This document shows, in pieces, positions 9,352-59,092 of a stretch of DNA of 64,000 nucleotides. The stretch comes from Bifidobacteriaceae bacterium. Lineage in GTDB: Bacteria > Actinomycetota > Actinomycetes > Actinomycetales > WQXJ01. Within the stretch, counting starts at the first letter, position 1; every line of letters begins with the position of its first letter. The stretch spans positions 38,425 to 102,424 of the forward strand of contig JAISXH010000037.1 of assembly GCA_031270825.1 (NCBI GenBank), read 5' to 3'. Made by a program: the position numbers and the translations under genes. The notes beneath the pieces were generated by a model. It was given only the letters and a program-made list of their open reading frames with translations, was not told where the DNA came from and searched no databases.

Positions 9352-10451
9352 CTCCCCGAACGCGGCTTGCGCCGCGGTTGGGAGACCTGTCCGCGGTGCT
9401 CGCCCGCGCGCATCGCGCCGATGCCAGACAGGGCCGCCGTGCCGATCCCGGCGTCGGCTCCGGCCGCGACCGCTTCGGCCCGCTTGGCCAGCACCCGTTC
9501 GGTGTGCTCGCGAATCCGCGGCTCCCGGTTACGCAGAGCCACCTCCAGCGGCGTGGCCAAGAAGATCGACGAGTAGGTTCCGGCCGCCATGCCCACGAAC
9601 AAAGCCAGCGAGATGTCCTGCAGCGACGACGGCCCCAACAACGCCCAGCCGATGAACAGAATCGCGGCCACCGGCAGCAGCGCCACCACCGAAGTGTTGA
9701 TCGAACGCACCATGGTCTGATTGACCGCCAGGTTGGCGGCCTCTCCATAGGTGTACTGCGACTGGTCCAACGCGCCCTGAGTGTTTTCACGCACCTTGTC
9801 GAAGACCACCACGGTGTCATACATCGAGTAGCCCAGAACGGTCAGGAAGCCGATCAGCGTGGCCGGGGTGACCTCGAAGCCGACCGCCGCATAGACCCCC
9901 ACGGTCACAATCAGGTCGTGGATCAGCGCCGTTATGGCCGACACGGCCATGGCCCAGTTCCGGAAGTACATGATCATGGCCAGGGCGACCAGCGCCAGGA
10001 AGATGATCGAGCCCCGTATCGCCTTGCCGGACACGTCCGAGCCCCAGGACGCCGACACCATCTGGTTCGACACGTCGGTGGTCGGCACATCATAGGCTTC
10101 GGCCAGAGCCGTCTTGACGCTTTGGGTTTCCTCACCACTGAGCTTGCCGGTCTGCACGCGCACGCCGCCGTCGCCAAGCGAGGAGACCTTGGGCGAGGCG
10201 TCGGCGCCCAGTTCGTCGCGCAACGCGTCCAGGGCCGGGCCCTGATCGGTCGAGGTGGTGCCGGACACCCGGAACTCGGTGCCGCCCACGAACTCCATGC
10301 CGAGGTGCAGGCCGGGCTTGAAAACCAAAACGCCGCAAACAATCACCACGCCGACGGCCACCGACAGCCAGATCTTGATCTTGGGCACCACCGCGTACGA
10401 CCGGCGCCCGGTGTAGAGGTCGTTGCCCCACTGCGAGAAGCCCCTAGCCAT
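9348..10451 (-). CDS. secF: Protein translocase subunit SecF
   Basis: LHLGMEFVGGTEFRVSG, YSMYDTVVVFDKVRENTQ, NQTMVRSINTSVVALLPV. Confidence 0.95.
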   Translation of the reverse strand: MARGFSQWGNDLYTGRRSYAVVPKIKIWLSVAVGVVIVCGVLVFKPGLHLGMEFVGGTEFRVSGTTSTDQGPALDALRDELGADASPKVSSLGDGGVRVQTGKLSGEETQSVKTALAEAYDVPTTDVSNQMVSASWGSDVSGKAIRGSIIFLALVALAMIMYFRNWAMAVSAITALIHDLIVTVGVYAAVGFEVTPATLIGFLTVLGYSMYDTVVVFDKVRENTQGALDQSQYTYGEAANLAVNQTMVRSINTSVVALLPVAAILFIGWALLGPSSLQDISLALFVGMAAGTYSSIFLATPLEVALRNREPRIREHTERVLAKRAEAVAAGADAGIGTAALSGIGAMRAGEHRGQVSQPRRKPRSGR

Positions 10452-12756
10452 CGCTATCGCCCCCTTCCCCCTCGGCGCCTGATTCTCGGGCCTGTTGAGC
10501 CGCCCGCCGCTTGCGCTCCGCTATCGACAAACCGGCGTCGCCGGCGACTTTGGTCGGCGGCTTCTTGACGGCCGGTTCTTGGTCAGGCCCGTCGTCCGGG
10601 CCGGACTCGTCCCCGGCCCCAGGGCCGCCGCCCGCCTCGCCGGCGCCCCCCGGACGTGTTCCAGCCGGGCGTGCCTTCTTGCCCGATGCCGTTTCGACCG
10701 TCAGGCTGTCAACTTCCGCCAGGTCCTCCTCAGCTAGGTCGTCTGCTTCGTCGAGGTCCTCCAAGACGGCCACAGCGCCACCCGAGCCGGCGCCGGCGAC
10801 CGCCCGGTCGGCATCGGCGGCCGCGGCGAAACGACCCCTGCCGACATAGCGAACCGCGCCCGGCGCGCCCAAACGGAACGGATCCAGGCCAGACCAGGGA
10901 TGGCCCTCGCCCCAGAAACGAGTCTTGGTCGCCAGCAACACCACCGGATGGGTGAACAGCATGACCACCACCAAGTCCATAACCGTGGTCAGGCCCAGGG
11001 TGAAGGCGAAGCCGCGCACGCCGCCCACCGCCACCATGTACAGAACGATCGCCGCGAGGAAGTTGACCGCGTCCGAGGCCCAAATGGTCCGCCGGGCCCG
11101 CAACCAGGCCATCTCCACCGCCACGCCGATCGGACGGCCGACCCGCAGCTCGTCACGGATGCGTTCGAAATAGACAATGAACGAATCAGCCGTGATGCCG
11201 ATAGCGATGATCAGGCCGGCCACGCCAGCCAGCGACAGCCGGTAACCCTGCGTCCAGCCCAGCAGCACAATGGTGCCGTAGGAGATGCCGATGGCCAAGA
11301 TCAGCGACAGCACCGTCACCCCAGACAACGCCCGGTACTGGAAGAAGGAGTAGACAGCCACCAGGATCAGGCCGATCAGACCGGCCCAAAGCCCGATTTC
11401 CAGCTGTTCGGATCCGGCCGTGGCCGAAATCTGGTCCTGCGACTGGACCACGAAGTTGATCGGCAACGAGCCGAACGACAGCTGGTCGGCCAGGGTTTTC
11501 GAGGTCTGTTGGGTGAACGAGCCCGAGATTTGGGCCTCGCCGGTCAGGATCGGGTCGTTGCACACCTCAGGCGCGGAGATGACCAGGTCGTCCAAGACGA
11601 TCGCGAACTGCCGCTTGGGGTCTTCGGCATTGGCCTTGCAGGCCGCGTCCAGTTTGGTGGTGACGGCGCCGAACTGCTTGCCGCCGGCGGAGTTGAAGGC
11701 GATGTCCACTATCCACTGACCAGTGGTGTTGCCCTGCTGGGTGGTCGCCATGCCGTTGTTGGCCTTGGTCAGCTCGGAGCCTTGGACCATGACCGGGCCG
11801 AGGATGTAGGCCGCCGTGCCTTCCTCGTCGCAAGTGACCAGCGGCTTGTCGGGATCAGAGGGATCGTTGCCGCGCGATGAGCCGACCATTGAGCAGTTGA
11901 TGGATTCGGCCACGGTCTGGGCTTTGGCGGCCTCTTCGGTGATGCCGGTGGCGGTCTTCTGGGCGATCGTGGACTCGGCGCCTTCCAACAGCTTGGCGTA
12001 CTCCTCGGCCACGGCCCCGTAAACGATCGTGTCGTTGAGGCCGTTGTCCAGCCGCGCGGTGTAGGCCTCGTCCGGCGGGACCGGCATATTGCCGGTAGAG
12101 GCGTCGACCTTCGACGTCGGGGTGGGCGCCGGGGAAGGACTGGTGGACGATGCCGTGGGGCTGGGCTCCACACTCTCCTCGGTTGTCGGGGTGGTTTCGC
12201 CGGTCTCAGTCTCAGCGCCGTCGCTGGGCTCTTCTCCTGTTTCGCCTTCTTCGCCTTCTTCGCCTGTTTCGCCTTCTTCGGCGCTGGGCTCGGGCGACGG
12301 CGTGTAAGACGGGTTCGGGTAATACCGGGTCGACCAGGCTTCGCCTTGGTCAGGCGTGGCGCCGGTGACATACAGGACAGTCCTAAAGGTCATCTTGGCC
12401 GACTTGGTCACCAGGTCGAGACTCTCTTGGCTGGGGTCGCCGGGAATCGAAACGACGATATTCGAACTGCCCTGACGGGCGACCTCGGCCTCGGTCACGC
12501 CAGAAGCGTTGACGCGCTTTTCGATGATCTCTTTGGCCTGGTCCAGCTGCTCGTCCGTGACCTGGGCATTTGATTCGGAGGCCTGGGGGGTCAGGACCAG
12601 CTCGGTGCCGCCTTCGAGGTCGAGGGCGAACTTCGGCAAGAACCCGGTCTTGCCCGCCGCGGCGCCAATTCCGATCGCTCCGAACAGAAGGATCACCAGC
12701 ACCACCAGCACCAGCAAAGTGCGGCCAGGCCGGGCCTTTCGAGAGTGTGTAGCCAC
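10444..12756 (-). CDS. secD: Protein translocase subunit SecD with acidic/Ser-Thr-Pro insertion and long C-terminal tail
   Basis: LDLEGGTELVLTPQ, GIGITADSFIVYFERIRDELRVGRP; located directly upstream of secF. Confidence 0.95.
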   Translation of the reverse strand: MATHSRKARPGRTLLVLVVLVILLFGAIGIGAAAGKTGFLPKFALDLEGGTELVLTPQASESNAQVTDEQLDQAKEIIEKRVNASGVTEAEVARQGSSNIVVSIPGDPSQESLDLVTKSAKMTFRTVLYVTGATPDQGEAWSTRYYPNPSYTPSPEPSAEEGETGEEGEEGETGEEPSDGAETETGETTPTTEESVEPSPTASSTSPSPAPTPTSKVDASTGNMPVPPDEAYTARLDNGLNDTIVYGAVAEEYAKLLEGAESTIAQKTATGITEEAAKAQTVAESINCSMVGSSRGNDPSDPDKPLVTCDEEGTAAYILGPVMVQGSELTKANNGMATTQQGNTTGQWIVDIAFNSAGGKQFGAVTTKLDAACKANAEDPKRQFAIVLDDLVISAPEVCNDPILTGEAQISGSFTQQTSKTLADQLSFGSLPINFVVQSQDQISATAGSEQLEIGLWAGLIGLILVAVYSFFQYRALSGVTVLSLILAIGISYGTIVLLGWTQGYRLSLAGVAGLIIAIGITADSFIVYFERIRDELRVGRPIGVAVEMAWLRARRTIWASDAVNFLAAIVLYMVAVGGVRGFAFTLGLTTVMDLVVVMLFTHPVVLLATKTRFWGEGHPWSGLDPFRLGAPGAVRYVGRGRFAAAADADRAVAGAGSGGAVAVLEDLDEADDLAEEDLAEVDSLTVETASGKKARPAGTRPGGAGEAGGGPGAGDESGPDDGPDQEPAVKKPPTKVAGDAGLSIAERKRRAAQQARESGAEGEGGDSDG

Positions 12757-12808
12757 CTAAGTGTTTCTCCTTGGATGATTTGCGGGCGAAGCCTAAGAGC
12801 TGAAAGAC

Positions 12809-13321
12809 CTACTTGTCTTGGTCTTCCGGCTGCGATTGGTCCTGTCCGCCGGCGGGGTCCGTGTCGGCATCTGCGGGCGAGCCGTCAAGCTCTGGCTCTT
12901 CGGCCGAGCCGTCAAGCTCTGACTCCTCGGCCGAATCCGGCAGCTCATCCTCGTCGAGAGGATACGGTTCGGTCAGATTGCCCCATTCCTCATCCGAGAC
13001 CACCGACTTGATCGCCCGGCGCAGGTAGGCCGATTCATCGCCGCTAGGCGACATCAGCGTCAACACGTCGCCGTTGACTTGGGTGACCACACCGATCATG
13101 CCGCCCACGGTCATGACTCGCTGGCCGACGTCCAACGCCCGGCGGAAATCACCCTGCTGTTGTTGCTGCTTCTTGTTCCGCCGAGACATGAACCACATCA
13201 ACAGGATCATGCCGCCAATGAAGATCAGCAACACGTAGTTGCCGCCGCCTCCCCCTGGCTGGGTCGCCGGCTCCTCACCTTCGGCCAACACGGCGACATC
13301 GAAAATAGTCAACGAAAACAC
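12809..13321 (-). CDS. yajC: Preprotein translocase subunit YajC
   Basis: Single TM, RRNKKQQQQQGDFRRALDVGQRVMTVGGMIGVV; gene order yajC-secD-secF. Confidence 0.92.
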   Translation of the reverse strand: MFSLTIFDVAVLAEGEEPATQPGGGGGNYVLLIFIGGMILLMWFMSRRNKKQQQQQGDFRRALDVGQRVMTVGGMIGVVTQVNGDVLTLMSPSGDESAYLRRAIKSVVSDEEWGNLTEPYPLDEDELPDSAEESELDGSAEEPELDGSPADADTDPAGGQDQSQPEDQDK

Positions 13322-13351
13322 TCCTCGGTCAATGGGATGCGAAAAAAGACA

Positions 13352-14455
13352 TTACGTCCGGGGTGAGTCTAGCCCACCCCACGAAAGGTCCGGCCGAAGC
13401 AGAGAAATCTCTGGGCTGAGGTCGGGGGCGCCGCCGATGGGCTGGCCCAGATGGGTGTAGGCCGCAGGGGTGGCCAAGCGACCGCGAGGCGTCCGCGCAA
13501 TCAAGCCTTCGCGCAGTAGGAAGGGCTCCACCACCGTCTCAATGGTGTCCGGCTCCTCGCCCACGGCGGCCGCCAAGGTGGTCAATCCGACCGGCTGGCC
13601 GACGAAGCGGCGGACCAGCACCTCGAGGATGGCTCGGTCGAGTCGGTCCAGTCCGCGCTCATCCACCTGGTAGACGTCCAGAGCGGCCAGAGCGGCCTCG
13701 ATGTCGGCCACGCCGGTGCCCCGGACCTCGGCCCAATCCCGCACCCGGCGCAGCAGACGATTGGCGATCCTGGGCGTGCCGCGCGAACGCGAGGCCACCT
13801 CCCGGCCCGCCTCGGCGGTGACCACCAGGGCGAGCAGCGCCGCCGAGCGCGCGATCACCCTTTCCAACTCCTCGGCCGAGTAATAGTCGAGCTGCCCGGT
13901 GAACCCGAACCGATCCCGCAGAGGAGCGGGCAACAGCCCCGCTCGGGTGGTCGCGCCGACCACCGTGAATGGTGGCAAGGTCAGAGGAATGGCGTTGGCG
14001 CCGGGCCCTTTGCCGACCACGACATCGACCCGGAAATCCTCCATGGCCACGTACAGCATCTCTTCAACTGGCCGGGCCAAACGATGGATCTCGTCGACAA
14101 AGAGGACTTCGCCCTCTTCCAGCGAGGTCAGCACCGCCGCCAGATCGCCGGCGTGTTGGATCGCCGGACCGGATGTGACCCGCATCGAGACACCCAGTTC
14201 GGCCGCGATGATCATGGCCAGAGTGGTTTTGCCCAGCCCCGGCGGCCCGGACAACAGAACATGGTCTGGCGGCATGTTCCGGGCCCGGGCGGCTTCCAGC
14301 ACCAGCGAAAGCTGATCCCGGACCACTCGCTGGCCCACGAATTCGCCCAGGTTCTTGGGCCGCAAGGCGGCCTCGATAGCTCGTTCTGTTCCGGACGCCG
14401 CCGGTGAGAGCGCTTCGCGCGCCAGCGGCTCGGCGCTGATCGATTCGTCGTTCAT
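13352..14455 (-). CDS. ruvB: Holliday junction branch migration helicase RuvB
   Basis: [52 protein letters not shown]. Confidence 0.97.
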
Positions 14456-14513
14456 CGGTTCGCCTGCCGTCCAACCGCGCTTCGGCGCCGCGCGCAGGCG
14501 GCCCCCCGGCTAT

Positions 14514-15122
14514 TCATCGGTTCGCCCGCAATCGTCCCAGCGCGGCCCTCAGCAACCCCGCCACCTCTGTCGGCGCATCCGGTTCGGACTGGACGGCCGC
14601 CACCGCGGCGGTCGCCGCCTGGGCGTTGAAGCCGAGCTGCATCAGCGCCATCAGAACCTGTTCGCCCTCAGCGCCGGCGCCCGGCAGTCCGCTCGATCCG
14701 GGCACCCCGGCGCCGCCTGTGGCCGGGGCCAGCTTCCCAGCCAGTGTGATGACCAGCTTCTGCGCGCCCTTGCGGCCGATGCCCGGCACCGTGGTCAGGG
14801 CCGTGACATCTTCGGCGGCCACCGCCTTGGTCAGCCCGTCCGCGCCGAGGGCCGAGACCAAGGCCAGCGCCAGCTTCGGCCCCACGCCGCTGGCGGACTG
14901 CGCCACCACGAAAACGTCACGTTCCACGGCATCGGCGAACCCATACAAAGTCAGGGAATCCTCACGCACCACCAGGTGCGTCAGAATCGTGGCCTGAGCG
15001 CCTTGGCGGAGGCGGTCGCGGGCGGCGGGCGTGAGGGTGACGGCCATGCCGACGCCGCCGCATTCAATGACGGCGGTGTTGGCGGTCAGGGACAACACTT
15101 CCCCCCGCAGCGAGGCGATCAC
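14514..15122 (-). CDS. ruvA: Holliday junction protein RuvA
   Basis: VIASLRGEVLSLTANTAVIECGGVG...VPGIGRKGAQKLVITLAGKL; GTG start at 15122 overlapping ruvC stop. Confidence 0.95.
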   Translation of the reverse strand: MIASLRGEVLSLTANTAVIECGGVGMAVTLTPAARDRLRQGAQATILTHLVVREDSLTLYGFADAVERDVFVVAQSASGVGPKLALALVSALGADGLTKAVAAEDVTALTTVPGIGRKGAQKLVITLAGKLAPATGGAGVPGSSGLPGAGAEGEQVLMALMQLGFNAQAATAAVAAVQSEPDAPTEVAGLLRAALGRLRANR

Positions 15123-15691
15123 GCCGTCACCCAAGTCTTGCGGCCGCGGCGGGCCGCCCGGGCGGCTTCGACCCAAGCTTTCTGGGCCGCCGTGGCGGCC
15201 TGGCCGGTGGGACTGAGCGTGCTGGGGCGCCAGGCGTGGCAGATGGCCAGGGCCAAGGCGTCGGCGGCGTCGGCCGGGCGGGGCGGTTCGGACAGGCCGA
15301 GCAGGCGTGTGACCATCCTGGCGACCTGATCTTTAGGAGCGTCCCCGTTGCCGGTGACGGCGGCTTTGACCTCGGTCGGGGTGTGCAACGCCACTTCGAC
15401 GCCGCGCCGGGCCGCTTCGACCATGGCCAAGCCGGCGACCTGCATGGTGCCGGAGACGGTGTAGGCATTGTGTTGGGCGAAAACCCGCTCGACCGCCAGC
15501 GCGTCCGGCCGGTAGCGCTCGATCCAGGCGCCAATCGCGTCCGCCACGGCCGCCAGGCGGCGGTCGACGGTGTCATCCGGCGGGCTGGTGGCGATTCCGA
15601 AGGCGACCATTTGGACCCGTCGGCTGGGCTCGGAATCGACCACGCCCAGGCCGCAACGGGTCAGGCCCGGATCGACGCCCAGCACGCGCAT
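15119..15691 (-). CDS. ruvC: Crossover junction endodeoxyribonuclease RuvC
   Basis: MRVLGVDPGLTRCGLGVV, ALAVERVFAQHNAYTVSGTMQVAG, DAADALALAICHAW. Confidence 0.96.
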   Translation of the reverse strand: MRVLGVDPGLTRCGLGVVDSEPSRRVQMVAFGIATSPPDDTVDRRLAAVADAIGAWIERYRPDALAVERVFAQHNAYTVSGTMQVAGLAMVEAARRGVEVALHTPTEVKAAVTGNGDAPKDQVARMVTRLLGLSEPPRPADAADALALAICHAWRPSTLSPTGQAATAAQKAWVEAARAARRGRKTWVTA

Positions 15692-15697
15692 AGACGG

Positions 15698-16456
15698 CTA
15701 AGCTCCCATCGCTTCGGCCAGGACCTCTTCGGAGGCGTCGAAGTTGGTGTAAACGTTCTGCACGTCGTCCGAGTCCTCCAGCGCGTCCACCACGCGCATG
15801 ATCTTCTTGACGCCATCGGCGTCCAACGTCACCTCGAGCGAGGGCACGAACTGCACCTCGGCCAAGTCGTAGTCGATCCCGGCCGCCTGCAGGGCCCGGC
15901 GGGCGGCGACCAGATTCTCCGGCGCGGTGATGATCTCGAAACCGCCGTCTTGGGCGCTGACCTCTTCCGGATCCGCGTCCAGCACGGCGTCCAGGACCGC
16001 GTCCTCGTCCACGCCCTCGGCCGCAGGCACCTCGATGACGCCTTTGCGCGAGAACATGTAGGCCACCGAACCCGGATCGGCCAGCGAACCGCCGTTGCGG
16101 CTGAGCGCCAGCCGGATGTCCGATGACGCCCGGTTGCGATTGTCGGTCAAGGCCTCCACCAGCACGGCCACCCCGCCCGGCCCGTACCCTTCGTAGATGA
16201 TCGACTGATAGTCGGCGCCGCCGCCCTCCGCGCCGGAACCGCGCTTGACCGCCCGGTCGATGTTCTCATTCGGCACCGACGACTTCTTGGCTTTTTGAAT
16301 GGCGTCGAAAAGAGTCGGGTTGGCGGCCGGATCGCCACCGCCGGTCCGTGCCGCCACCTCGATATTCTTGATCAGCTTGGCGAACAGCTTGCCGCGTTTG
16401 GCGTCAATCGCGGCCTTCTTGTGCTTGGTGGTGGCCCACTTGGAGTGACCCGACAT
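15698..16456 (-). CDS. YebC/PmpR family protein
   Basis: [38 protein letters not shown]; start reassigned from 16486 to ATG 16456. Confidence 0.94.
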
Positions 16457-45260: not shown

Positions 45261-45318
45261 CCACCGGAGCGGTCCTTTGGGCCGCCGGGCAGCCAGGCAG
45301 CTACGGCTAGGGAACCAG

Positions 45319-46083
45319 ATGGATCAGGCCAAAGGCCGCCGGAAACGGCGCGGGGTATCTGACCGCGGGCTGAAGATCGTCGGTTTGGCGCTGCTCCTGA
45401 CCTCGATGGTCAGCACCGGCGTGGTTCTGAAAGACATGCCGCCGGACCTGGAACAGCTCGGCTTCGCCCGCCTGACCGTCGCCATGGTGCTAGAGGCCCT
45501 GTCCTGGGCCGCGATCCCGATCTACGCCTGGCTGGTCTGCACGGGCTTTGCCCACACCCGTTCAGCCCCGCGCTACGCCCTGCGGTTGGCCGGGCTCGCG
45601 GTGATCGCAGAGGTCCCGTACGATCTGGCCACCAGCGGCGCCCTGTGGGACATGTCATCGCAGAATCCGGTCTTCGCCGTGCTGACGAGCCTGTTGGTGC
45701 TGATGCTGGGCCAAAGCGCGACGCGGTCACAGGCATTGTCACGCGCGGCCCGCGGCGGCCTCTGGGCGGCGCTGGCGATCGCCGGCGCTCTCTGGCTGAC
45801 GCTGTTCAACATCGGCCTGCGGCTTGGCGTGCTGCCGACGGGGGTCTTGGTGCTCGCGTTCACCCTCCTGTTCCAGCTCCTGGCCAAGCGTCAGAACACC
45901 ATGATGTTCGCCGGGGCGCTGATCGGCGTCTTGGGTGGCATCACCACCGCCTTCGGATTCGTCTTCCTGCACTTTCGCAATGATCGCCTGGGCATGGATC
46001 GCGGGCGCGACAAATACATCTTCTACGCCCTGTATCCCCTCTGCCTGGCCGCCGCCGCCGTCTACCGCACCTGGCCGGCCTAA
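45319..46083 (+). CDS. TraX-like membrane protein
   Basis: AAIPIYAWLVCTGFAHTRSAPRYALRLAGLAVIAEVPYDLATSG...MSSQNPVFAVL; start set to ATG 45319. Confidence 0.75.
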   Translation: MDQAKGRRKRRGVSDRGLKIVGLALLLTSMVSTGVVLKDMPPDLEQLGFARLTVAMVLEALSWAAIPIYAWLVCTGFAHTRSAPRYALRLAGLAVIAEVPYDLATSGALWDMSSQNPVFAVLTSLLVLMLGQSATRSQALSRAARGGLWAALAIAGALWLTLFNIGLRLGVLPTGVLVLAFTLLFQLLAKRQNTMMFAGALIGVLGGITTAFGFVFLHFRNDRLGMDRGRDKYIFYALYPLCLAAAAVYRTWPA

Positions 46084-47209: not shown

Positions 47210-49560
47210 GGATTATCCCCGCATTCGCGGGGAACACGCCATGTCCCGCATTCTGGTCAAACTGGTCGGCGGATCATCCCCGCATTCGCGGGGAACACGA
47301 AGGCCCACGGTTGGCAGCCATCCCCGCATCCGGATCATCCCCGCATTCGCGGGGAACACATACAACCTCCCGGGACCATACGTTGCACCAGCGGATCATC
47401 CCCGCATTCGCGGGGAACACTTATTGTGGCTGAAAAAATCACAAAAACTGTTGGGATCATCCCCGCATTCGCGGGGAACACTATCCTGTCCGGTTTTTCG
47501 AGACCGACGCCACCGGATCATCCCCGCATTCGCGGGGAACACGCTAGCAGTCTCGCTGCTCCTGCGCGGCAACGCGGATCATCCCCGCATTCGCGGGGAA
47601 CACATTTGTCCGTTGCTTTTTTGTCTCCTCTTTTGAGGATCATCCCCGCATTCGCGGGGAACACGTGGCCGAGACCGATCATGCGGGTCTGCCAGACGGA
47701 TCATCCCCGCATTCGCGGGGAACACTGACGCCGGCCCGGGCCAGGGCGGCGTGCCAGAGCCGGGGATCATCCCCGCATTCGCGGGGAACACCCGGGGCGT
47801 GGCCGTGGCCGGCCCGGACGGGACGGATCATCCCCGCATTCGCGGGGAACACGTGGTGCCTAGTTTTTGCGGGCTGACCAGCGTGGGATCATCCCCGCAT
47901 TCGCGGGGAACACAAGAACCACAACTCCCAGCGGACAGCGGCCGCGGGATCATCCCCGCATTCGCGGGGAACACGTCGGCCATCACATTGCCGGTAGCGC
48001 CCGTGCCGGATCATCCCCGCATTCGCGGGGAACACACCGCAAGCCCGAGAGACAGGACCGGATGCCGGGGATCATCCCCGCATTCGCGGGGAACACTCGG
48101 GGCCCGGATGGCTAGTCTTGCGTGATTCGGGATCATCCCCGCATTCGCGGGGAACACTTTGAGAGAACTATGGCTTGTCCAGTGAGCGAGGGATCATCCC
48201 CGCATTCGCGGGGAACACCTCGTCGCAGCAACCGTGAATGTGCGAGAAAGCGGATCATCCCCGCATTCGCGGGGAACACGCCCCGACCCGGCCTGAGCGT
48301 TGAAGATCCGCGGGATCATCCCCGCATTCGCGGGGAACACCGGCCGACCTGGCAGACACCGCTATCGAAAGACGGATCATCCCCGCATTCGCGGGGAACA
48401 CGAGCCTGAGCGGAACGAGATATATGATGTTCTGGGATCATCCCCGCATTCGCGGGGAACACTGGTTTTTGTCGGCCATGGAGCTGGAAGTAGTGGGATC
48501 ATCCCCGCATTCGCGGGGAACACGGGGCGACTAAGAGCACGATGACGAGTTCGCAGGGATCATCCCCGCATTCGCGGGGAACACGCCAAAACCAGATCCT
48601 CGCTCATCACAGCCTCCGGATCATCCCCGCATTCGCGGGGAACACGGCCTGTTTCCAGGCCTGCTGGGGGGTGGACGGGGATCATCCCCGCATTCGCGGG
48701 GAACACCTTTTTCACCAGCAGCCCGGCGGCTCTGGCCTCGGATCATCCCCGCATTCGCGGGGAACACGGGTTGGATTGTGGTGAGAGCTTCGGTCGTGTA
48801 GGATCATCCCCGCATTCGCGGGGAACACTTGTGGCACCACGGATTGTCGATCTCCGCGCGGGGATCATCCCCGCATTCGCGGGGAACACTTGGTCGAGCG
48901 CGTCGATCAGGTCGGCGAGGGAGGATCATCCCCGCATTCGCGGGGAACACCAAATCCCACACGCCGACCCGGGCCGCGATGCGGGATCATCCCCGCATTC
49001 GCGGGGAACACGCACCGCAGTACCGGCACAAGCCTGTCACCGGGGGATCATCCCCGCATTCGCGGGGAACACAACCTTTACAGCATAGAGGCGGCCAGCC
49101 ACTACGGATCATCCCCGCATTCGCGGGGAACACTCCATCCCGACATCGCCGACCTTGTCGAGCGGCGGATCATCCCCGCATTCGCGGGGAACACTCGGCC
49201 GAGGGTGGGGCTTCAGTGCTGCTGACGGGATCATCCCCGCATTCGCGGGGAACACGGGACCCTGAGACTAAAGAGGGTCAGCAGCGAGGGATCATCCCCG
49301 CATTCGCGGGGAACACCCCCCCATCTGCGAAAACGCAGTTTACTGATTGGGATCATCCCCGCATTCGCGGGGAACACCTCGTCGCAGCCACCGTAAATGT
49401 ACGAGACACCGGATCATCCCCGCATTCGCGGGGAACACGGGAGACGGCCTAGACTCGCCAGTCTTGTCGTCGGATCATCCCCGCATTCGCGGGGAACACA
49501 TGATAGTAGTGTCGTATAGATATAGCAGGAGGGGATCATCCCCGCATTCGCGGGGAACAC
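47210..49560 (-). CRISPR. Type I-E CRISPR array, 39 repeats / 38 spacers, transcribed leftward
   Basis: 28-bp repeat (minus strand) GTGTTCCCCGCGAATGCGGGGATGATCC; 61-bp period throughout except one 66-bp interval at spacer 47726-47763; terminal repeat at 47210 degenerate (GGATTATCCCC). Confidence 0.98.
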
Positions 49561-49892
49561 TCTTGCTAACCTGCGGATTCACACTACCACCGAGGCTCTG
49601 CGGTGCAGAAGCCAGCTGACGGCCGGTTTGCGGTGTGCCCGGTTGGGGCCGTGGTCAGCTTGCTACGGTGGAACTGCCGGGCTCTTCCGGGCCCGGGTTG
49701 GCTGTGTTTGGCGGCCCACCGAGGTTGGGCATGACCCGGAGTACGGCGACGGTACTGCGTGCTCCTCACATCTGTGGGGCAAGCGACCTGCCCGCGTTCT
49801 CGGACACGTTTCGGAGCGCGGGCAGGGGCATATCGACGCCACTAGTGGCGAAAGAGTACGGTGAAGGTTGACAGCCCGCCAGCCCCAGTGCC
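49561..49892. promoter_or_regulatory. CRISPR leader / divergent cas3 upstream region
   Basis: Non-repeat DNA between the array's leader-proximal end and the cas3 start; inferred from repeat orientation and the degenerate distal repeat. Confidence 0.65.
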
Positions 49893-52853
49893 ATGATGTC
49901 CACCATGGCCCCGTCCCCAGCCCATGAGTTAAGCCCAGCCACGCGAATGCTTTGGGCAAAGACCTACCCCGACGACCAAGACGCTTTCTACTCCCTGCAC
50001 AGACACATGGAAGATAGCGCCGCCGTCGCCCAGTTGCTTTGGCGCGAATGGCTCCCGGAGCGTGTGACCACAAGCATCGCGTCCGCCGCCGGCGGCCCGG
50101 CGGCCGGCGAGACGCTGTTGGCCTGGCTGGCCGGCCTCCACGACCTGGGCAAGGCCACCCCTTCCTTCCAGAGCAAAGTGGAACGCTTGGCGAACCGTGT
50201 TCACGACGCCGGCCTTCAGGTGCCCGCAGCGGCATCTCAGCACTCGATTTACCATTCGACCGCCAGCTACATCCTGTTGGACGAGATACTCGCAGACGCG
50301 GGCTGGCCGCCCGCGTCCCGCAAGGGACTCGCCTCGGTCATCGGCGGCCACCACGGCGTGCCGCCGACCTCCCAGGAGCTTCGCCACATCAAGAGCGGCG
50401 ACAGGCGGGCTTCCCTTGGAGACGGCGAGTGGAGCAAGTCGCAACACGAACTCGTCCAACACATCACCCGGCTGACCGGCGCCGACCAATTCCTGGAGAG
50501 CTGGCGCGAGCTGCAGTTTCCCGTCTCGCTGCTGCCGGTCCTAACCGGCGCGGTGATCGTCGCCGACTGGATCGCGTCGAACGCCGCTTTGTTCGGCCCG
50601 CGATTCTCCGAGCCGGCCCAAGCGCAGGCAACTAAAGCCTGGTCCGCTCTGGGCCTCCCAGGACCATGGCGAGCCGTGCCACCCCCTGACGATCCGCCGA
50701 CCGCCCTGCGAACCAGATTCGATTTCCCCGCCGCCGCGAAACCGCGACCTATCCAGCAAGACGCGCTGCGCGCGGCCAACGCCTTGGCGGGCGCCGGGCT
50801 GATAGTCATCGAAGCGGCCATGGGAGAAGGCAAGACGGAAGCCGCCCTCCTCGCGGCTGAAGCCCTGGCGGCCAAGACCGGCGCGGGCGGCATCGCCTTC
50901 CTGCTGCCAACCCAGGCCACCTCCAACGCGATGTTCGGCCGCGTTCACAAATGGATTGAGCGTCTACTCCGCGCAACTGGCTCCCAGGCCACCCAAACAA
51001 TGTTCTTGGCACACGGAAAATCCGAGTTCAACGAAGGATTCGGGTCGCTTCCCAAATGGACTGCCAGTTCGATGGGCGATGACGCCCACCCACTTTCGCG
51101 CTCATCCGACCTGGCCGTGGCCCATACCTGGCTTCTCGGCCGCAAGAAGGGAGTGCTGGCCAACTTCGTCATCGGCACCGTTGACCAAGTCCTGATGATG
51201 GCCCTGAAAGCCAAGCACCTGGCGCTGCGCCACCTGGCATTCGCCGGAAAGGTCGTGATCATCGACGAGGTTCACGCCTACGACGCCTACATGAGCGCTT
51301 ACCTCGACAGGTCTTTGCATTGGTTGGGCGCGCACCAAGTGCCGGTGGTCCTCCTATCTGCGACCCTGCCCCCCAGCCGCCGGGCAAAGCTCGTCGCCGC
51401 CTACCGCGATGGGCTCGCCGCCCAACAGGGTTCCGGGTTTCCCGCGCCCCCCGCACCCGAGCGCCACATCTCCGGTCCCTCGCCTTATCCGCTGATCACA
51501 GTCGCCGCCGCCGATGCCGTGCGACAAGTTGAGCCCAAAGCCGGCTTGGGCACGCGGCAAGTTCGCCTCGCCCCCCTCGATGACGACGACGCCACGCTGG
51601 TGGAGACGTTGCGGCAGGTGTCTGAACAGGGTGGTTGCATCGGAATCATCAGGAACACCGTTGACCGCGCGCAAAAGACCGCCCGACTGTTGGAGAAAGA
51701 GCTTCGCGCCGAGGTGGTCTTGGTCCATTCCCGATTGATCCCCGAAGACAGATCCGCAGTGGAATCTCGCCTGGTCCGCGAACTCGGGCCTGACAGCGCC
51801 ACCCGACCGGAGTCGTTGCTCGTGGTGGGGACCCAAGTGTTGGAGCAGTCGCTCGACATCGATTTCGACCTGCTCATCACCGACCTGGCACCCATGGATC
51901 TGCTCCTGCAACGGATGGGCAGACTTCACCGACACGCCCGGGGAACAGCACAAAGCGAACGACCTGCCACCTTGCGCCAGCCCACCTGCTTGGTGACCGG
52001 GGTGTCGGACTGGCAAAGCGTTCCCCCAACTCCCGACGGTTCCGTCAACGCCGTGTACGGAACTCGAGGTGACGCCAAGGGGCGGGCTTCGGCCGCGTCA
52101 TCGCCCATTGTCCGTACTCTGGCCGCGCTGCGACGCTTCATTGAACCGGCCGGGACCGCACTGGAGTTGCCACAGGACATACCACGTCTGGTTGAAGAGG
52201 TCTACGAACGAACCGGCGTCTTGCCAGATACTTGGGAGGCAGCCGCAGCTGCGGCGGACTTGGCTTGGGACGTGTTCCTGGACAAGAAGCGGGCCGCCGC
52301 CGGGGCCTTCCTGTTAGGGCGGGTGCCGACCCCTCGGATAGGAATGCTCAATTGGCTATCCGGCAAAGTTGAGAGCACGGGCAGCGGCCACGTTCAGCCC
52401 GGAGCCACAGACGATTCGGCTGAAGGGCAACGCCAGGTACGCGATTCCGAAGACTCGATCGAAGTTATCTTGGTTCAGCGCCGCGACGGCGCCATCAGAT
52501 TGTTGCCTTGGCTCACGCTGTCAGACCAACCTGACAGCATTACCGACATGAGCGACAGCACGGTAATCCCCACTGACGCCGAGCCGGATTGGCGCCTGGC
52601 CCGGAGGGTAGCTCGCTGCACCGTGATGCTGCCCCCTCGGCTGGCCAGTCCCTGGCTTGCAGACAAGGCCATTGGGGAACTCGAACGCGACTGTTTCCCG
52701 GGCTGGCAGGCTTCGCGCTGGCTCCGCGGCAAGCTGGTGCTGGTGCTGGACCAAGAGCTTCAGGCGACCATTGCCGGCGTCACTTTGACTTACGACCAGC
52801 GCTACGGTCTGCAAACAACCCAACCAACCGAGAAGAAAGGGGGCCCCGCGTGA
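49893..52853 (+). CDS. cas3: CRISPR-associated helicase/nuclease Cas3, type I-E
   Basis: HD motif GLHDLGKATPSFQ, Walker A EAAMGEGKTEAALLA, IIDEVHAYDAYMS, LLSATLPPSRR; start could also be 49905. Confidence 0.95.
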   Translation: MMSTMAPSPAHELSPATRMLWAKTYPDDQDAFYSLHRHMEDSAAVAQLLWREWLPERVTTSIASAAGGPAAGETLLAWLAGLHDLGKATPSFQSKVERLANRVHDAGLQVPAAASQHSIYHSTASYILLDEILADAGWPPASRKGLASVIGGHHGVPPTSQELRHIKSGDRRASLGDGEWSKSQHELVQHITRLTGADQFLESWRELQFPVSLLPVLTGAVIVADWIASNAALFGPRFSEPAQAQATKAWSALGLPGPWRAVPPPDDPPTALRTRFDFPAAAKPRPIQQDALRAANALAGAGLIVIEAAMGEGKTEAALLAAEALAAKTGAGGIAFLLPTQATSNAMFGRVHKWIERLLRATGSQATQTMFLAHGKSEFNEGFGSLPKWTASSMGDDAHPLSRSSDLAVAHTWLLGRKKGVLANFVIGTVDQVLMMALKAKHLALRHLAFAGKVVIIDEVHAYDAYMSAYLDRSLHWLGAHQVPVVLLSATLPPSRRAKLVAAYRDGLAAQQGSGFPAPPAPERHISGPSPYPLITVAAADAVRQVEPKAGLGTRQVRLAPLDDDDATLVETLRQVSEQGGCIGIIRNTVDRAQKTARLLEKELRAEVVLVHSRLIPEDRSAVESRLVRELGPDSATRPESLLVVGTQVLEQSLDIDFDLLITDLAPMDLLLQRMGRLHRHARGTAQSERPATLRQPTCLVTGVSDWQSVPPTPDGSVNAVYGTRGDAKGRASAASSPIVRTLAALRRFIEPAGTALELPQDIPRLVEEVYERTGVLPDTWEAAAAAADLAWDVFLDKKRAAAGAFLLGRVPTPRIGMLNWLSGKVESTGSGHVQPGATDDSAEGQRQVRDSEDSIEVILVQRRDGAIRLLPWLTLSDQPDSITDMSDSTVIPTDAEPDWRLARRVARCTVMLPPRLASPWLADKAIGELERDCFPGWQASRWLRGKLVLVLDQELQATIAGVTLTYDQRYGLQTTQPTEKKGGPA

Positions 52854-54556
52854 ATGACCCTCCCGCCAGTTTCGACCTAATTGACCAACCCTGGATCCGG
52901 GTCTTGGACCAGGACGCGCGCCTCTCTGCCGCGTCTATCCGCACCGTGTTCCACTCAGCCAGGGAGATCAGCCAGATCGCGGGCGAACTCCCCACCCAGA
53001 ACTTTGCGATCCTGCGGGTGCTGCTCGCGATTCTGCAACGATCAGTCCTGCCGAGACTAGCCAATTCAGATCCGATTGACGTTTGGCAGGAGCTCTGGAA
53101 GTCCAGCACGCTTCCTTTGGAGGACATCGACCAATACCTTGAGCGCCACCGGTCGAGATTCGACCTGCTATCAGCCAAGACGCCGTTTGGCCAGGTGGCG
53201 GATTTGCGCACAGCGAAGGAGGAGGCCGGGCCGGTCAGGAAGCTGATTGCCGAAGTTCCCGACGGCCACCCGTTCTTCACCGTTCGCACCGGGAACGGAT
53301 CCGACCAGCTTGATTTCGCGGAGGCCGCGCGCTGGATCATTCATGTCCAGGCGTTCGACACAGCAGGCATCAAGAGCGGCGTGGTCGGCGATCCCACCGT
53401 CAAGGGCGGCAAGAGCTACCCGATCGGCACCGGCTGGGCGGGCAAACTAGGGGGTGTCTACGCCGAAGGCCCCAATCTGAAAGAAACTCTGTTGTTGAAC
53501 CTAGTCTTGGACCCGGCGTTGTGGTCGGACGACCCATACGCGGACGTCCCCCTTTGGGAGCAACAGCCGCTCACCCCAGACCCAACCGCCCACGCCAGCG
53601 CACCCGCCGGACCGGCTCAGCTATACACCTGGCCATCACGGGCCGTGCGCCTGATCCATGACGGCGACAAGGTCACCGGCGCCGTGCTGACCAATTCCCT
53701 GCGCCTCGACGCTCCCAACAAACATCAGATCGAGCCGATGAGCATGTGGAGGCGCAGCGCCGCACAAGAAAAGGCCCTCCGCTTGCCCGTCGTGTTCATG
53801 CCCAAGCAGCACCAGCCGGACCGGGCGCTGTGGCGAGGGCTGGAAGCTCTCTTGCCGGAGTCATCCGGCGCCTCCCCAGCCGACCACAGCGTGCCGGCGC
53901 CGGGAGTGTTGGACTGGATCGGTGTTCTGCGGGAGTCGGAAGCCTTGGCGCCAGACACGGTCGTTGGAATACACGCCGTCGGCATCTCATACGGATCCAA
54001 CAATTCCGTTGTCGACGAGGTGATAGATGACGCTTTGTCTGTGCACGCCGCGCTCTTAGACCCGCAAAACCGGCAACTCCGCGAGAGTGCCAACCGGGCC
54101 GTCGCCGCGGCTGACGGGGCGGTCTGGGAACTCGGCCGCCTGGCGACGAACATAGACGTCGCCAGCGGCAGCTCCCAGCCAACGGTTGGCGCAACCGCGC
54201 GAGCCGCCGCTTATTTCGCACTGGATCAGCCTTTCCGGGCGTGGCTGGCCGGCCTCGGTCTGGACAGTGATCTGACCGAGTCGTTGGCGGCCTGGGAGAC
54301 AATCGTCCGCCGCATCCTGAGGCGGGCCGGGGAAGACTTGGAGCGGCAAGCGCCGCCGAACGCCTTCACGGGCCACCCATACAAAGAAAAAGGGAAGAGC
54401 CGCGTCGGCCAGGGGACGCAGCCTGAGCGGTGGATGACAGTTGGGCGGGCTTCGGCCATATTCCGGCGCAGACTCGCACTTGCGTTGCCTAACTCGCGAA
54501 CTCCAGACGAAACCAAGCCCTATCCAAACGAACCGGCGATGGAGACCAAATCATGA
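52850..54556 (+). CDS. casA: Cascade large subunit Cse1/CasA
   Basis: FDLIDQPWIRVLDQDARLSAASIRTVFHSAREI; GTG at 52850 overlaps cas3 stop (GTGA); track start 52589 rejected. Confidence 0.92.
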   Translation: MNDPPASFDLIDQPWIRVLDQDARLSAASIRTVFHSAREISQIAGELPTQNFAILRVLLAILQRSVLPRLANSDPIDVWQELWKSSTLPLEDIDQYLERHRSRFDLLSAKTPFGQVADLRTAKEEAGPVRKLIAEVPDGHPFFTVRTGNGSDQLDFAEAARWIIHVQAFDTAGIKSGVVGDPTVKGGKSYPIGTGWAGKLGGVYAEGPNLKETLLLNLVLDPALWSDDPYADVPLWEQQPLTPDPTAHASAPAGPAQLYTWPSRAVRLIHDGDKVTGAVLTNSLRLDAPNKHQIEPMSMWRRSAAQEKALRLPVVFMPKQHQPDRALWRGLEALLPESSGASPADHSVPAPGVLDWIGVLRESEALAPDTVVGIHAVGISYGSNNSVVDEVIDDALSVHAALLDPQNRQLRESANRAVAAADGAVWELGRLATNIDVASGSSQPTVGATARAAAYFALDQPFRAWLAGLGLDSDLTESLAAWETIVRRILRRAGEDLERQAPPNAFTGHPYKEKGKSRVGQGTQPERWMTVGRASAIFRRRLALALPNSRTPDETKPYPNEPAMETKS

Positions 54557-55215
54557 TTGACACTGAGAGTGCCAAGCCACAACGAATTAGCCATTGGCAA
54601 GCGCGGTCTATGGTGAGCGCTTACGTGGATCGCCAGGTCAACTGGATCTGGGGACGTTCAGACAGGGCCGGGGTACTGGCAAACTTGCGCCGGGCGGTGA
54701 ACTTGACGCCAGGAGACGCCGTGTCCACTTGGGGGATTGAGTTCGGGACCTTTCCCGAAAAGCTGCTGGGACAGGGCGATCGGCCCAGTAAAGCTGAATC
54801 CGCTGTCCACGCGGCCCTCACGTTGTACGCCATCCACCAGCAAAGCCACCACTCGACCCCGATGCATCATCCAGGCAGGTCATTGGCGGCAGCGGTGCGT
54901 GTCCTCGCGCTGCAATTGTCGCCGGACAACCGAGTGCCAGAACAGCCTCCGCACCGCTTCACGGCATTGGCCACCGCTGGGAGCCAAGCGGAGCTGCTAA
55001 ATCATGCTCGCGGCCTGATCCGCCAGTTGGGCACCAGCAAGCCGCCCATACCGCTTGACTACGGTCAACTGGCCGCAGACTTGTACTCCATTCAGTACTC
55101 GAGCTCGGCTCCAGGAGTGCGCCTGCGGTGGGCACGCGAATTCGCCTTCACGCCGCCAGCCGCGACATCCGACCACCAAGACCAAAGAACTGACCAACCT
55201 AACGGAGGTAAATGA
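54553..55215 (+). CDS. casB: Cascade small subunit Cse2/CasB
   Basis: Position between casA and cas7; ANLRRAVNLTPGDAVSTWGIEFG, TLYAIHQQSHHSTPMHHPGRSLAAAVR; ATGA overlap. Confidence 0.88.
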   Translation: MIDTESAKPQRISHWQARSMVSAYVDRQVNWIWGRSDRAGVLANLRRAVNLTPGDAVSTWGIEFGTFPEKLLGQGDRPSKAESAVHAALTLYAIHQQSHHSTPMHHPGRSLAAAVRVLALQLSPDNRVPEQPPHRFTALATAGSQAELLNHARGLIRQLGTSKPPIPLDYGQLAADLYSIQYSSSAPGVRLRWAREFAFTPPAATSDHQDQRTDQPNGGK

Positions 55216-55216
55216 C

Positions 55217-56329
55217 ATGTCCCCTGCACCGCTCTTCATCGACATCCACGTGCTCCAAAGCGTGCCACCAAGCAACATCAACCGAGACGACACAGGCAGC
55301 CCAAAGACCGCCACCTACGGTGGCGTGCGGCGCGCGCGGGTGTCTAGCCAGGCCTGGAAACGCGCCACGCGCCGGGCATTCCAGGACAAGCTCGACCCGA
55401 GCACCTTGGGAGTGCGGACCAAGAAGGTCGTGGACCTAATTGCTGAGCACATCGCCTCCCAAGCAGAAGATCTCGGCGAGGACGCCATCGGCCTCGCCGC
55501 TGGCATCCTCAACGCGGCTGGGATCAAGACCGCTGCGAGTTCGGCCGAAGCCAATCCCGAAACCGGCTATCTGCTGTTCGTCAGCCGGCGCGAAGCCTCC
55601 GACCTGGCGGCGATCGCCATCGAAACTCACCGCAATGGTGACAAGCCGTCCAAGAAGGCGGTCAGCCAGGTGCTGACCGGCGTGCAGGGCATTGACGTGG
55701 CGCTGTTCGGGCGCATGGTGGCGGACGCCCCGGACCTCAACACCGACGCGTCCGCGCAGGTTGCCCACGCCATCAGCGTCCATGCCGTTGAGCCGGAATT
55801 CGATTATTTCACCGCCGTCGACGACCGGGCCCCGGAGGACAACGCGGGCGCAGGCATGATTGGAACCGTCGAATTCAATTCCTCCACCTACTACCGGTAC
55901 GCCACCCTAAACGTGCCGCTGTTGGAGGAACAGTTGGGTTCTGCTGAGGCGTCGGCCCGCGCGGCCAGGGCCTTCGTAGAGGCGTTCATCACTTCGATGC
56001 CGACCGGCAAACAGAACACGTTCGCCAACCGGACTTTGCCTGCCGTCGCGATAGTCCAGTTCCGCTCGGGTCAGCCCATCAATCTGGTTGGCGCATTCGA
56101 GACCGCAGTCACGCCCGGCCCCGACGGCGGATACTTGGCGAAGGCGTGCAGCGCCCTCAAAGACGAACTCGACCAGGTTGACAAAGCCTACGGCTCTCCC
56201 GCTGAGCGGACCTTCGTGCTGCGACTTGGTCCGAAGACGGATCCGCTGGCAGGCATTGGCGAAGAGGTCTCGCTAGCCGAACTGGGCAACGGGGTGGCAA
56301 CAGAGGTCGAGGTTAGGCTGCAGTCGTGA
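55217..56329 (+). CDS. cas7e: Cascade backbone Cas7e/CasC
   Basis: FIDIHVLQSVPPSNINRDDTGSPKTATYGGVRRARVSSQAWKRATRRAF; ggaggtaa SD before ATG 55217; track start 55055 rejected. Confidence 0.95.
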   Translation: MSPAPLFIDIHVLQSVPPSNINRDDTGSPKTATYGGVRRARVSSQAWKRATRRAFQDKLDPSTLGVRTKKVVDLIAEHIASQAEDLGEDAIGLAAGILNAAGIKTAASSAEANPETGYLLFVSRREASDLAAIAIETHRNGDKPSKKAVSQVLTGVQGIDVALFGRMVADAPDLNTDASAQVAHAISVHAVEPEFDYFTAVDDRAPEDNAGAGMIGTVEFNSSTYYRYATLNVPLLEEQLGSAEASARAARAFVEAFITSMPTGKQNTFANRTLPAVAIVQFRSGQPINLVGAFETAVTPGPDGGYLAKACSALKDELDQVDKAYGSPAERTFVLRLGPKTDPLAGIGEEVSLAELGNGVATEVEVRLQS

Positions 56330-57087
56330 GTACCTTGCTCCTCAAGTTGGCTGGTCCTATGCAGTCATGGGGGGACTCCAGCCGTTTCACGGTGCGCCAA
56401 ACGCGTCACGAGCCGACCAAGAGCGGCGTGATCGGACTGCTGGCGGCGGCTCAAGGGCGGCGGCGATCAGATCCAATCGAGGATCTCGTGGCGGTCAGGT
56501 TCGGAGTGAGGATCGACCAGGCGGGACACCTCCAACGCGACTTTCAAACCGCACACCACCAATCAGGCAAGTCGATGCCGCTTTCCAACAGGTATTACCT
56601 GGCTGACGCCATCTTTCTGGTGGGGATCGAGACAGATCCGGGCCTGATTGAGACGCTTGAGTCAGCTCTCAGACAGCCGGCCTTTCCGCTGTACCTAGGT
56701 AGGCGCTCCTGTCCGCCCGGTTCCCCTCTAGTTGTAGGAGTTCAACCCGACCTCGGGCTGTCGGCATCCCTTCGATCCGCCCCCTGGCAAGCGGCTGACT
56801 GGCACAAACGAATGCTGAGCTCGTCTTCGCACCTGTACTTGGAGATGATTCGCGACCGTTTGCCAGACGATCCGCCCGGCCTGTCCGGCGAATTGGTCCG
56901 AGATCTGCCCATCAGCTATTCGCCTGAATCTCGAAACTACGGCTGGCGAACCGTGGTGCGCGAGGCCGAGATCGAGGTGGTCAACGACCTTCACCGGCCT
57001 CCGCTGGAGGTGGATTCGCTCGGAGACACCCACGACCCATTTACCGCATTGGAAGACACCTCATGTTCCTCACCCGTTTTGCCATGA
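56326..57087 (+). CDS. cas5e: Cas5e/CasD
   Basis: LLLKLAGPMQSWGDSSRFTVRQTRHEPTKSGVIGLLAAAQGR; GTGA overlap with cas7e. Confidence 0.94.
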   Translation: MSTLLLKLAGPMQSWGDSSRFTVRQTRHEPTKSGVIGLLAAAQGRRRSDPIEDLVAVRFGVRIDQAGHLQRDFQTAHHQSGKSMPLSNRYYLADAIFLVGIETDPGLIETLESALRQPAFPLYLGRRSCPPGSPLVVGVQPDLGLSASLRSAPWQAADWHKRMLSSSSHLYLEMIRDRLPDDPPGLSGELVRDLPISYSPESRNYGWRTVVREAEIEVVNDLHRPPLEVDSLGDTHDPFTALEDTSCSSPVLP

Positions 57088-57767
57088 ACCGTCAGCGGCG
57101 CGGCGCAAGAGAGCTGCTAGCCTCGCCGTTCAAGATGCACGCCGCCATTGAGAGCGGCTTTCCGCCCGCGGCCGGACCAGCGGTCGCCCAATCGCCCGGG
57201 CGCGTTCTGTGGAGGATAGATCCAACCGAGCGAGCCACTCTTCTTTATGTTTCCAGCCCAACTCCACCGGACTTCTCTCATCTCGTCGACCAGGCTGGCT
57301 GGCCCGCATCTGGCCAAAGCTGGGAGACACGCGACCTGACTCCTTTGCTGGACCTGCTTGAAAAAGGCCAAATATGGCGTTTTCGCTTGACGGCCAATCC
57401 GACCCGCAGAGTCTTGGAAGACAAGGCGAAGAAACTCGGCGCTGACGGGGAGGGGCGAAACGTCGTTGGCAAGCGCATGGCCCACCTGACCGCGCAACAG
57501 CAGCAGGACTGGTTGTTGAGCAAGACTCAGGGCCTGGGCTTCAGCATCCCTGACGACGACGGAGAGCCGCAGCTCATGGTTACATCCCGAGCCAGACTCC
57601 GCTTTGAGCACGGTAAGGGACGTCCTGTCACCCTAACTGCGGTGGGCTATGAAGGGGTGTTGGCCGTTGATGACCCGCAGGCCCTGAGGCAGGCGCTGAT
57701 CGGCGGGATCGGCGCGGGCAAGGCTTTCGGATGCGGCCTGATGACCCTGGCCAAGCCGCCGGGCTGA
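57063..57767 (+). CDS. cas6e: crRNA endonuclease Cas6e/CasE
   Basis: MFLTRFAMNRQRRGARELLASPFKMHAAIESGFPP; GIGAGKAFGCGLMTLAKPPG glycine-rich C-terminus. Confidence 0.94.
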   Translation: MFLTRFAMNRQRRGARELLASPFKMHAAIESGFPPAAGPAVAQSPGRVLWRIDPTERATLLYVSSPTPPDFSHLVDQAGWPASGQSWETRDLTPLLDLLEKGQIWRFRLTANPTRRVLEDKAKKLGADGEGRNVVGKRMAHLTAQQQQDWLLSKTQGLGFSIPDDDGEPQLMVTSRARLRFEHGKGRPVTLTAVGYEGVLAVDDPQALRQALIGGIGAGKAFGCGLMTLAKPPG

Positions 57768-57773
57768 GTCGCA

Positions 57774-58733
57774 ATGGCTCCGCTGCGCGGCGCACCGCCG
57801 CCTGACCTAAAGGATTTGGTCCGGGCCCAGGACCGCATCTCATTCATCTATGTGGAGCGGTGCTTCGTCCATCGCGACTCCAACGCCATCACCGCTCGCG
57901 ACCAACGCGGCACCGTGCACATACCCGCCGCCAGCTTGGGGGCGTTGATACTCGGTCCTGGAGCCACGGTCAGCCATCAGGCCATAACCCTGTTGGCTGA
58001 AAGCGGCTCGACTGCCGTGTGGGTCGGCGAACGGGGCGTTCGCTACTACGCGCATGGCCGATCTTTGAGCGGCAGTTCAAGACTCCTTGAGGCCCAGGCA
58101 CGCATAGTGTCAAACAAGAACGAGCGGATGCGGGTGGCGCGAGCCATGTACGGAATGCGTTTCCCGGACGAAGACGTGTCCCGACTGAGCATGCATCAAC
58201 TGCGCGGCCGCGAGGGCGCGCGCGTGCGCCGGGCCTACAGGCAAGCTTCTCAAGACTCTGGCGTCGCCTGGGACGGCCGTGCGTATGACCCGAACGACTT
58301 TGACGCCGGCGACACAGTCAATAAAGCCCTGTCTGCGGCGACCGCCTGCCTATATGGCGTCGCGCACGCGGTCATCGTCGCACTCGGGTGTGCGCCCGGC
58401 CTCGGCGTAGTCCACACCGGGCACGCTCGTTCTTTCGTTTATGACATTGCGGACCTCTATAAAGCCGAAATCGCTGTCCCTGTGGCCTTTAGTGTGGCGG
58501 CCGCCGGTCCGGAGGACGTCGGTGGAACCACACGCCGCGCGGTTCGAGACGCGATCCGGGACGGGCTCATTATGACCCGCATCTCGCGCGACATAAAGCT
58601 GCTGCTGCTTGGACCCTCCAGCGACTCTGACGAGGACTCGCCGGAGAACTATGACGTGATCGAATTATGGGACGGCCGCACCGGCACCGTCTCAGGAGGC
58701 ATCTCCTACGGACAAGAGGCGGTGATCGTCTAA
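57774..58733 (+). CDS. cas1: Cas1e integrase
   Basis: RISFIYVERCFVHRDSNAITARD, LRGREGARVRRAYR, VHTGHARSFVYDIADLYKAEIAVPVAF. Confidence 0.96.
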   Translation: MAPLRGAPPPDLKDLVRAQDRISFIYVERCFVHRDSNAITARDQRGTVHIPAASLGALILGPGATVSHQAITLLAESGSTAVWVGERGVRYYAHGRSLSGSSRLLEAQARIVSNKNERMRVARAMYGMRFPDEDVSRLSMHQLRGREGARVRRAYRQASQDSGVAWDGRAYDPNDFDAGDTVNKALSAATACLYGVAHAVIVALGCAPGLGVVHTGHARSFVYDIADLYKAEIAVPVAFSVAAAGPEDVGGTTRRAVRDAIRDGLIMTRISRDIKLLLLGPSSDSDEDSPENYDVIELWDGRTGTVSGGISYGQEAVIV

Positions 58734-59092
58734 TGGTGGTCTTAGTCCTAACAGCTTGCCCGGAGGGACTGCGGGGTCTGCTGACACGTTGGCTCCTTGA
58801 AATCAGCCCCGGCGTGTTCGTGGGCCACGTGACCAAACGAGTGCGCGAGAGCATCTGGGAACACGTCCGAGGCATGGCGAACACTGGACGGGCTCTGATG
58901 GTCCACACCGCCCGAAACGAGCAACACCTCGAGTTCAAAGTCCACCGCCACGATTGGCGTCCGACAGACTTCGACGGGGTGGTGTTGATGCTGCGGCCTG
59001 ACAGCCAAGACCCTTCAGAGCTGCCCGCAACTGCCAAGAAAGGTTGGAGTTCGGCCAGCATCTACCGAAGAGCCCGGCGCCGAGCCGCCTAG
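58733..59092 (+). CDS. cas2: Cas2e
   Basis: MVVLVLTACPEGLRGLLTRWLLEISPGVFVGHVTKRVRESIWEHV; ATG overlaps cas1 stop by 1 nt. Confidence 0.95.
   Translation: MVVLVLTACPEGLRGLLTRWLLEISPGVFVGHVTKRVRESIWEHVRGMANTGRALMVHTARNEQHLEFKVHRHDWRPTDFDGVVLMLRPDSQDPSELPATAKKGWSSASIYRRARRRAA

Follow-up and report, generated by a model that had tools for sequence, protein, structure and literature searches.

How does a single CRISPR array come to hold two spacers that read nearly the same 33 nucleotides? The question is raised by an array in a 64,000-nt stretch of DNA from a Bifidobacteriaceae bacterium (the window, meaning this whole stretch), in which an older spacer (A) and a newer one (B) share most of their bases. 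All eight I-E genes, from cas3 to cas2e, lie beside the array in a single operon (Table 1), and I-E profiles are the best or near-best matches for each; for cas6 the top match is the general Cas6 profile, with Cas6e second. The Cas8e domain begins at about residue 95 of the listed ORF, so that the listed start is too far upstream. The crRNA-sense repeat, on the minus strand, is GTGTTCCCCGCGAATGCGGGGATGATCC; with 28 nt, a palindrome of the CCCCGC....GCGGGG kind and a period of ~61 nt, it has the form expected of type I-E. By gene set and repeat, the locus is a complete type I-E CRISPR-Cas system. Spacers are 33 nt long in 37 of 38 cases and 38 nt in one, and all but one of the 39 repeats are identical. 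Because the single variant repeat, at the left end, marks the trailer, the leader is placed to the right of position 49560, next to cas3; this agrees with the preliminary description, which had put the older spacer on the trailer side. A is thus the older spacer and B the newer, with 18 spacers between them.

Table 1. Features of the CRISPR-Cas locus, in window coordinates.
Feature	Position	Strand	Remarks
Type I-E CRISPR array	47210..49560	-	39 repeats of 28 nt, 38 spacers
Variant terminal repeat	47210..47237	-	GGATTATCC; trailer-end marker
Spacer 1 (oldest)	47238..47270	-	29/33 match in a same-genus genome (G002:C255), AA directly 5'
Spacer A	48219..48251	-	17th from trailer, 22nd from leader; crRNA sense GCTTTCTCGCACATTCACGGTTGCTGCGACGAG
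Spacer B	49378..49410	-	Third from leader; crRNA sense GGTGTCTCGTACATTTACGGTGGCTGCGACGAG
Presumed leader	49561..49892	-	Between array and cas3; from position and variant repeat at opposite end
cas3 (Cas3e)	49893..52853	+	Profile match, E 1e-208
cas8e/cse1	52589..54556	+	ORF as listed; profile match
cas11e/cse2	54553..55215	+	Profile match
cas7e	55055..56329	+	Profile match; domain from ~residue 60 of listed ORF
cas5e	56326..57087	+	Profile match
cas6e	57063..57767	+	Profile match
cas1e	57774..58733	+	Profile match
cas2e	58667..59092	+	Profile match

Some features of the locus stand apart from the spacer pair. In most of the related loci that were parsed the array is downstream of cas2; in the window it lies upstream of cas3, pointing away from that gene. 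Spacer 9 (47726-47763) is the 38-nt one, five nucleotides longer than all others; the best of its partial matches in relatives are rich in G+C and seem to reflect composition. The many weak matches that spacers 9 and 10, both G+C-rich, have in relatives were discounted as compositional. Spacer 2 (47299-47331) shares the eleven bases CATCCCCGCAT with the repeat. An ORF near the array (45277-46083), flanked by a transporter permease and an FKBP-type protein, has a TraX Pfam match (1.2e-12).

A and B, 33 nt each, agree at 28 of 33 positions in the same register, with mismatches at 12, 18, 24, 30 and 32; coordinates, sequences and mismatches are as the preliminary description gave them. In crRNA sense, with the first base of the 33-mer as p0, the five changes (15%) fall at p1, p3, p9, p15 and p21. 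The best same-register identity in 2000 spacer shuffles was 22/33, the analytic expectation of such a match over 666 pairs is 2.3e-9, and no other spacer pair in the array comes near this identity. The pair is therefore real and beyond chance.

A and B are probably two independent, PAM-fixed acquisitions from diverged but related mobile elements, the source being probably a protein-coding gene. A complete type I-E system would here have taken the same PAM-defined 33-mer twice, from homologous sequence. Cas1-Cas2 selects protospacers by PAM; with a conserved PAM in a conserved gene, the arrival of a relative of the earlier invader would lead to capture in the same register again. The source elements would already have diverged before the second acquisition, and gene homology and an AAG PAM are likewise presumed. 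CrRNA A would mismatch the target of B at p1 and p3 in the seed and at p9, p15 and p21, and would thus interfere poorly with it, though it could still prime the acquisition of B. Identity beyond chance, shared register, order in the array, a complete cas operon and recurrence in other loci are the observed parts of this account; the failure to find the A/B protospacer in the genomes, phages and plasmids searched and a coding signal of P = 0.16 count against it.

The PAM can be approached through the first spacer base, which was shown to come from the PAM in a type I-E system whose spacers are 33 nt long (PMC7677007). PAM-fixed capture predicts that p0 is kept, and it was kept in 21 of 22 independent same-site comparisons. 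Among crRNA-sense spacers of the window the first base is C in 19, G in 16, T in 3 and A in 0; over all 100 type I-E loci compared (see below) the counts are C 2526, G 803, T 451 and A 76, a distribution that points to avoidance of AAA as a PAM. For the window array an AA-type PAM was seen at one imperfect protospacer only, that of spacer 1 (29/33). For A and B the PAM was probably AA plus a G that the 33-mer retains as its first base. The two protospacers found both have the PAM in frame (an AAC or TTC codon). AA-type PAMs may thus lock the codon register in G+C-rich targets: they may often fall in frame, as AAC/AAG or TTC/TTG codons, with wobble bases at p3, p6, p9 and so on, in which case every second wobble base may be invisible to Cascade. 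Differences in same-site pairs overall do favour these positions (34/75, P = 0.02).

Whether A and B derive from coding sequence was judged from the codon pattern. The preliminary description read LVAATVNVR[ED][ST] from the plus strand, with three synonymous changes and two replacements, and took this as the signature of coding protospacers. Read from the opposite strand, the pair gives [VL]SRTFTVAAT, which is no worse and alters fewer amino acids: three changes are synonymous and one residue is replaced, its two base changes lying in one codon. A frame at least this conservative arises in 16% of random placements of the same kinds of change. That four of the five changes share one codon phase is correct, but weak as evidence, since the chance of this in any single phase is 0.14. 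With these two values (P = 0.16 and 0.14), the coding origin of A and B is, from the pair alone, suggestive only, well short of a signature. In 12 other same-site pairs a coding signal is present, if modest (Fisher P = 0.019), and the codon-phase bias of same-site pairs (P = 0.02) points the same way. Of the earlier proposal of related invaders, then, one site and two acquisitions stand, and homologous coding targets are plausible. If the PAM was AA plus a retained G, the preceding codon would be AAG and the predicted peptide K[VL]SRTFTVAAT or, on the other strand, LVAATVNVR[ED][ST][FL]. An SH3-domain reading of LVAATVNVRES was dropped: a proline is usual after such a motif in SH3 domains, and an AA PAM makes the next codon TTN (Phe/Leu), not proline. 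Elsewhere, spacers 22 and 84 of locus L158 form a same-site pair that differs only in AGC vs. TCG; this serine codon swap changes all three bases, leaves the peptide unchanged and suggests a coding target.

Searches for the target covered ~800 related genomes in all, the order and class samples being partial and slightly overlapping. Pattern searches of the bacterium's own genome, genomes of its genus, 18 family genomes and 396 order genomes returned the array itself only; in 396 class genomes, with one mismatch allowed, 7 hits were near the reversed-control level. The preliminary description had pointed to phages and plasmids, and in BLAST against GenBank phages and PLSDB plasmids A and B gave short partial matches only, with no protospacer among them. 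The nearest Cas1e (81%) is that of an uncultured Bifidobacteriaceae MAG (locus L013). MAGs of this sort tend to be named in ways that hint at insect guts, whose viruses are thinly represented in the collections searched; this is a lead only. Spacer 1 fared better: its match lies in a gene for a long multi-membrane protein, for which no Pfam family was found, adjoining a bacterial topoisomerase gene (Pfam Topoisom_bac). The element carrying it is, from this gene content, a probable conjugative element. The match thus indicates that the array records diverged mobile-element relatives in coding sequence.

How unusual such a pair is can be judged from the arrays of 99 other type I-E loci together with the window (3855 spacers, 124,040 within-locus pairs), from which adjacent and block duplicates were removed before counting. 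Diverged same-register pairs number 27 in 12 of 100 loci, or 26 in 11 of 99 without the window. Since 0.15 pairs are expected in a 38-spacer array (probability of at least one ~0.14), the window pair is unremarkable: one such pair in a 38-spacer array, as in about one in nine comparable loci, is interesting, not strange. In a Thermophilibacter locus (L091), spacers 59 and 74 match Dulem virus 33 in its major tail protein gene, at 27/33 and 29/33, with AA directly 5' of the phage protospacers; judged by these matches, this pair is a direct example of the proposed mechanism. The same array (9381-15751, Thermophilibacter mediterraneus) also holds four spacers on one site (44, 78, 91, 95), which reads as a short hairpin (CCCGGC..GCCGGG and variants); instead of a coding sequence, the target may be a terminator or some structured element.

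The strongest rival to two acquisitions from already diverged relatives is escape followed by re-acquisition: the invader recorded by A would have mutated in the seed, escaped and diverged further, and B would have been re-acquired, possibly primed by A. We consider this rather unlikely as the history of A and B, although several observations fit it, and the same was proposed for Legionella (Rao et al., 2016, PMC5071653). With the type I seed at positions 1-5, 7 and 8 (PMC5071653), two of the five changes (p1, p3) are in the seed and B is the newer spacer; the seed mismatch of the older spacer to the newer target, as first described, thus holds if B represents that target. All four wobble-phase changes (3, 9, 15, 21) fall on positions read by Cascade and none on the flipped-out 6, 12, 18, 24 and 30, for which the chance is 0.024. 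This avoidance counts against acquisition from relatives that had simply diverged and may rather hint at selection. As a general rule, avoidance of flipped-out positions was unsupported over all pairs (15 vs. 18).

The pattern expected of escape is clearer in other loci. Where a pair differs at only one or two positions, the changes cluster near the PAM: p0-p10 takes in 10 of the 11 (P = 1.3e-4) and the seed 7 of the 11 (P = 0.003). Both tests were settled on once the first 65 loci had been seen; the later loci contributed a p2 change and a p5,p25 pair, which agree with the pattern but are few. A small control set of mutated duplicates, with the two L157 entries counted as one event, does not share this placement (p20, 17, 2, 17, 5, 16). 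In Enorma burkinafasonensis (L090, 9389-13564), spacers 2, 18 and 44 from the leader address the same site and differ only at p2 and p3. Ordered by age (spacers 44, 18, 2), the series is stepwise (CAGGG, CAGAG, CAAAG), p3 changing and then p2, as successive seed escapes would leave. Further same-site groups occur in this array (17/26/40 and 29/33). One or two changes suffice for escape, however, whereas A and B carry five, spread to p21, and the 18 intervening spacers place their acquisitions far apart. The pair belongs to the diverged class of at least three changes, in which there is no PAM-proximal excess (24% vs. 33% expected). Escape as the cause, which the preliminary description offered beside divergence, is not borne out: across the 100 loci, seed concentration is confined to pairs that differ at one or two positions and is absent from pairs as diverged as A and B. 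The seed mismatches of this pair do not show that escape drove the change.

The remaining alternatives fare worse. That A and B came from two paralogous copies of a repeated domain within one element is very unlikely, as nothing speaks for it positively and the same PAM would be needed in both copies. That one spacer is an in-array copy of the other, mutated later, is hardly credible: duplicated and mutated blocks do occur elsewhere (L017, L061, L152, L157), but those cases are adjacent or block duplicates with one change, whereas the spacers flanking A and B differ and are unrelated and the repeats, 38 of 39 identical, misfit a 15% mutation of the spacer.

Acquisition from diverged relatives thus remains the preferred reading of A and B, and the cross-locus comparison is a more interesting product than the window pair, which is one example. 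Given same-site pairs of known relative age, one can ask from genomes alone whether an invader evades by seed mutation and is then targeted anew at the same site; comparing 100 loci brings this within reach of a test and sets a low-divergence class with seed-concentrated changes apart from a diverged one. A tentative and somewhat doubtful extension is that type I-E same-site pairs form a readable record of phage escape, in which near-identical pairs would be seed-changed in time order and diverged pairs would represent later stages.

Same-site spacer pairs are already described: the type I-C array of Legionella pneumophila Toronto-2005 contains same-region pairs against the element LME-1 (Rao et al., 2016, PMC5071653). 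Like A and B, these are spacers of different age in one array with an overlapping target, the older predicted to be weaker because of seed or PAM mismatch. In contrast to the window, the target element is known in Legionella, the newer spacer matches it perfectly and the system is I-C; the window system is I-E, and its pair is more diverged (5/33) and known from spacers alone. Primed adaptation in type I systems (PMC5059440), in which escape mutants trigger new acquisition, resembles what the escape reading of A and B allows for, but priming yields diverse spacers on the target and, unlike A and B, not the same site specifically. The I-E system of the Vibrio cholerae classical biotype (PMC7677007) shares 33-nt spacers and the full I-E gene set with the window. 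Its first spacer base is PAM-derived, as is very likely so in the window, where p0 is C, G or T and never A, in contrast to the conserved pyrimidine of V. cholerae (PMC7677007).
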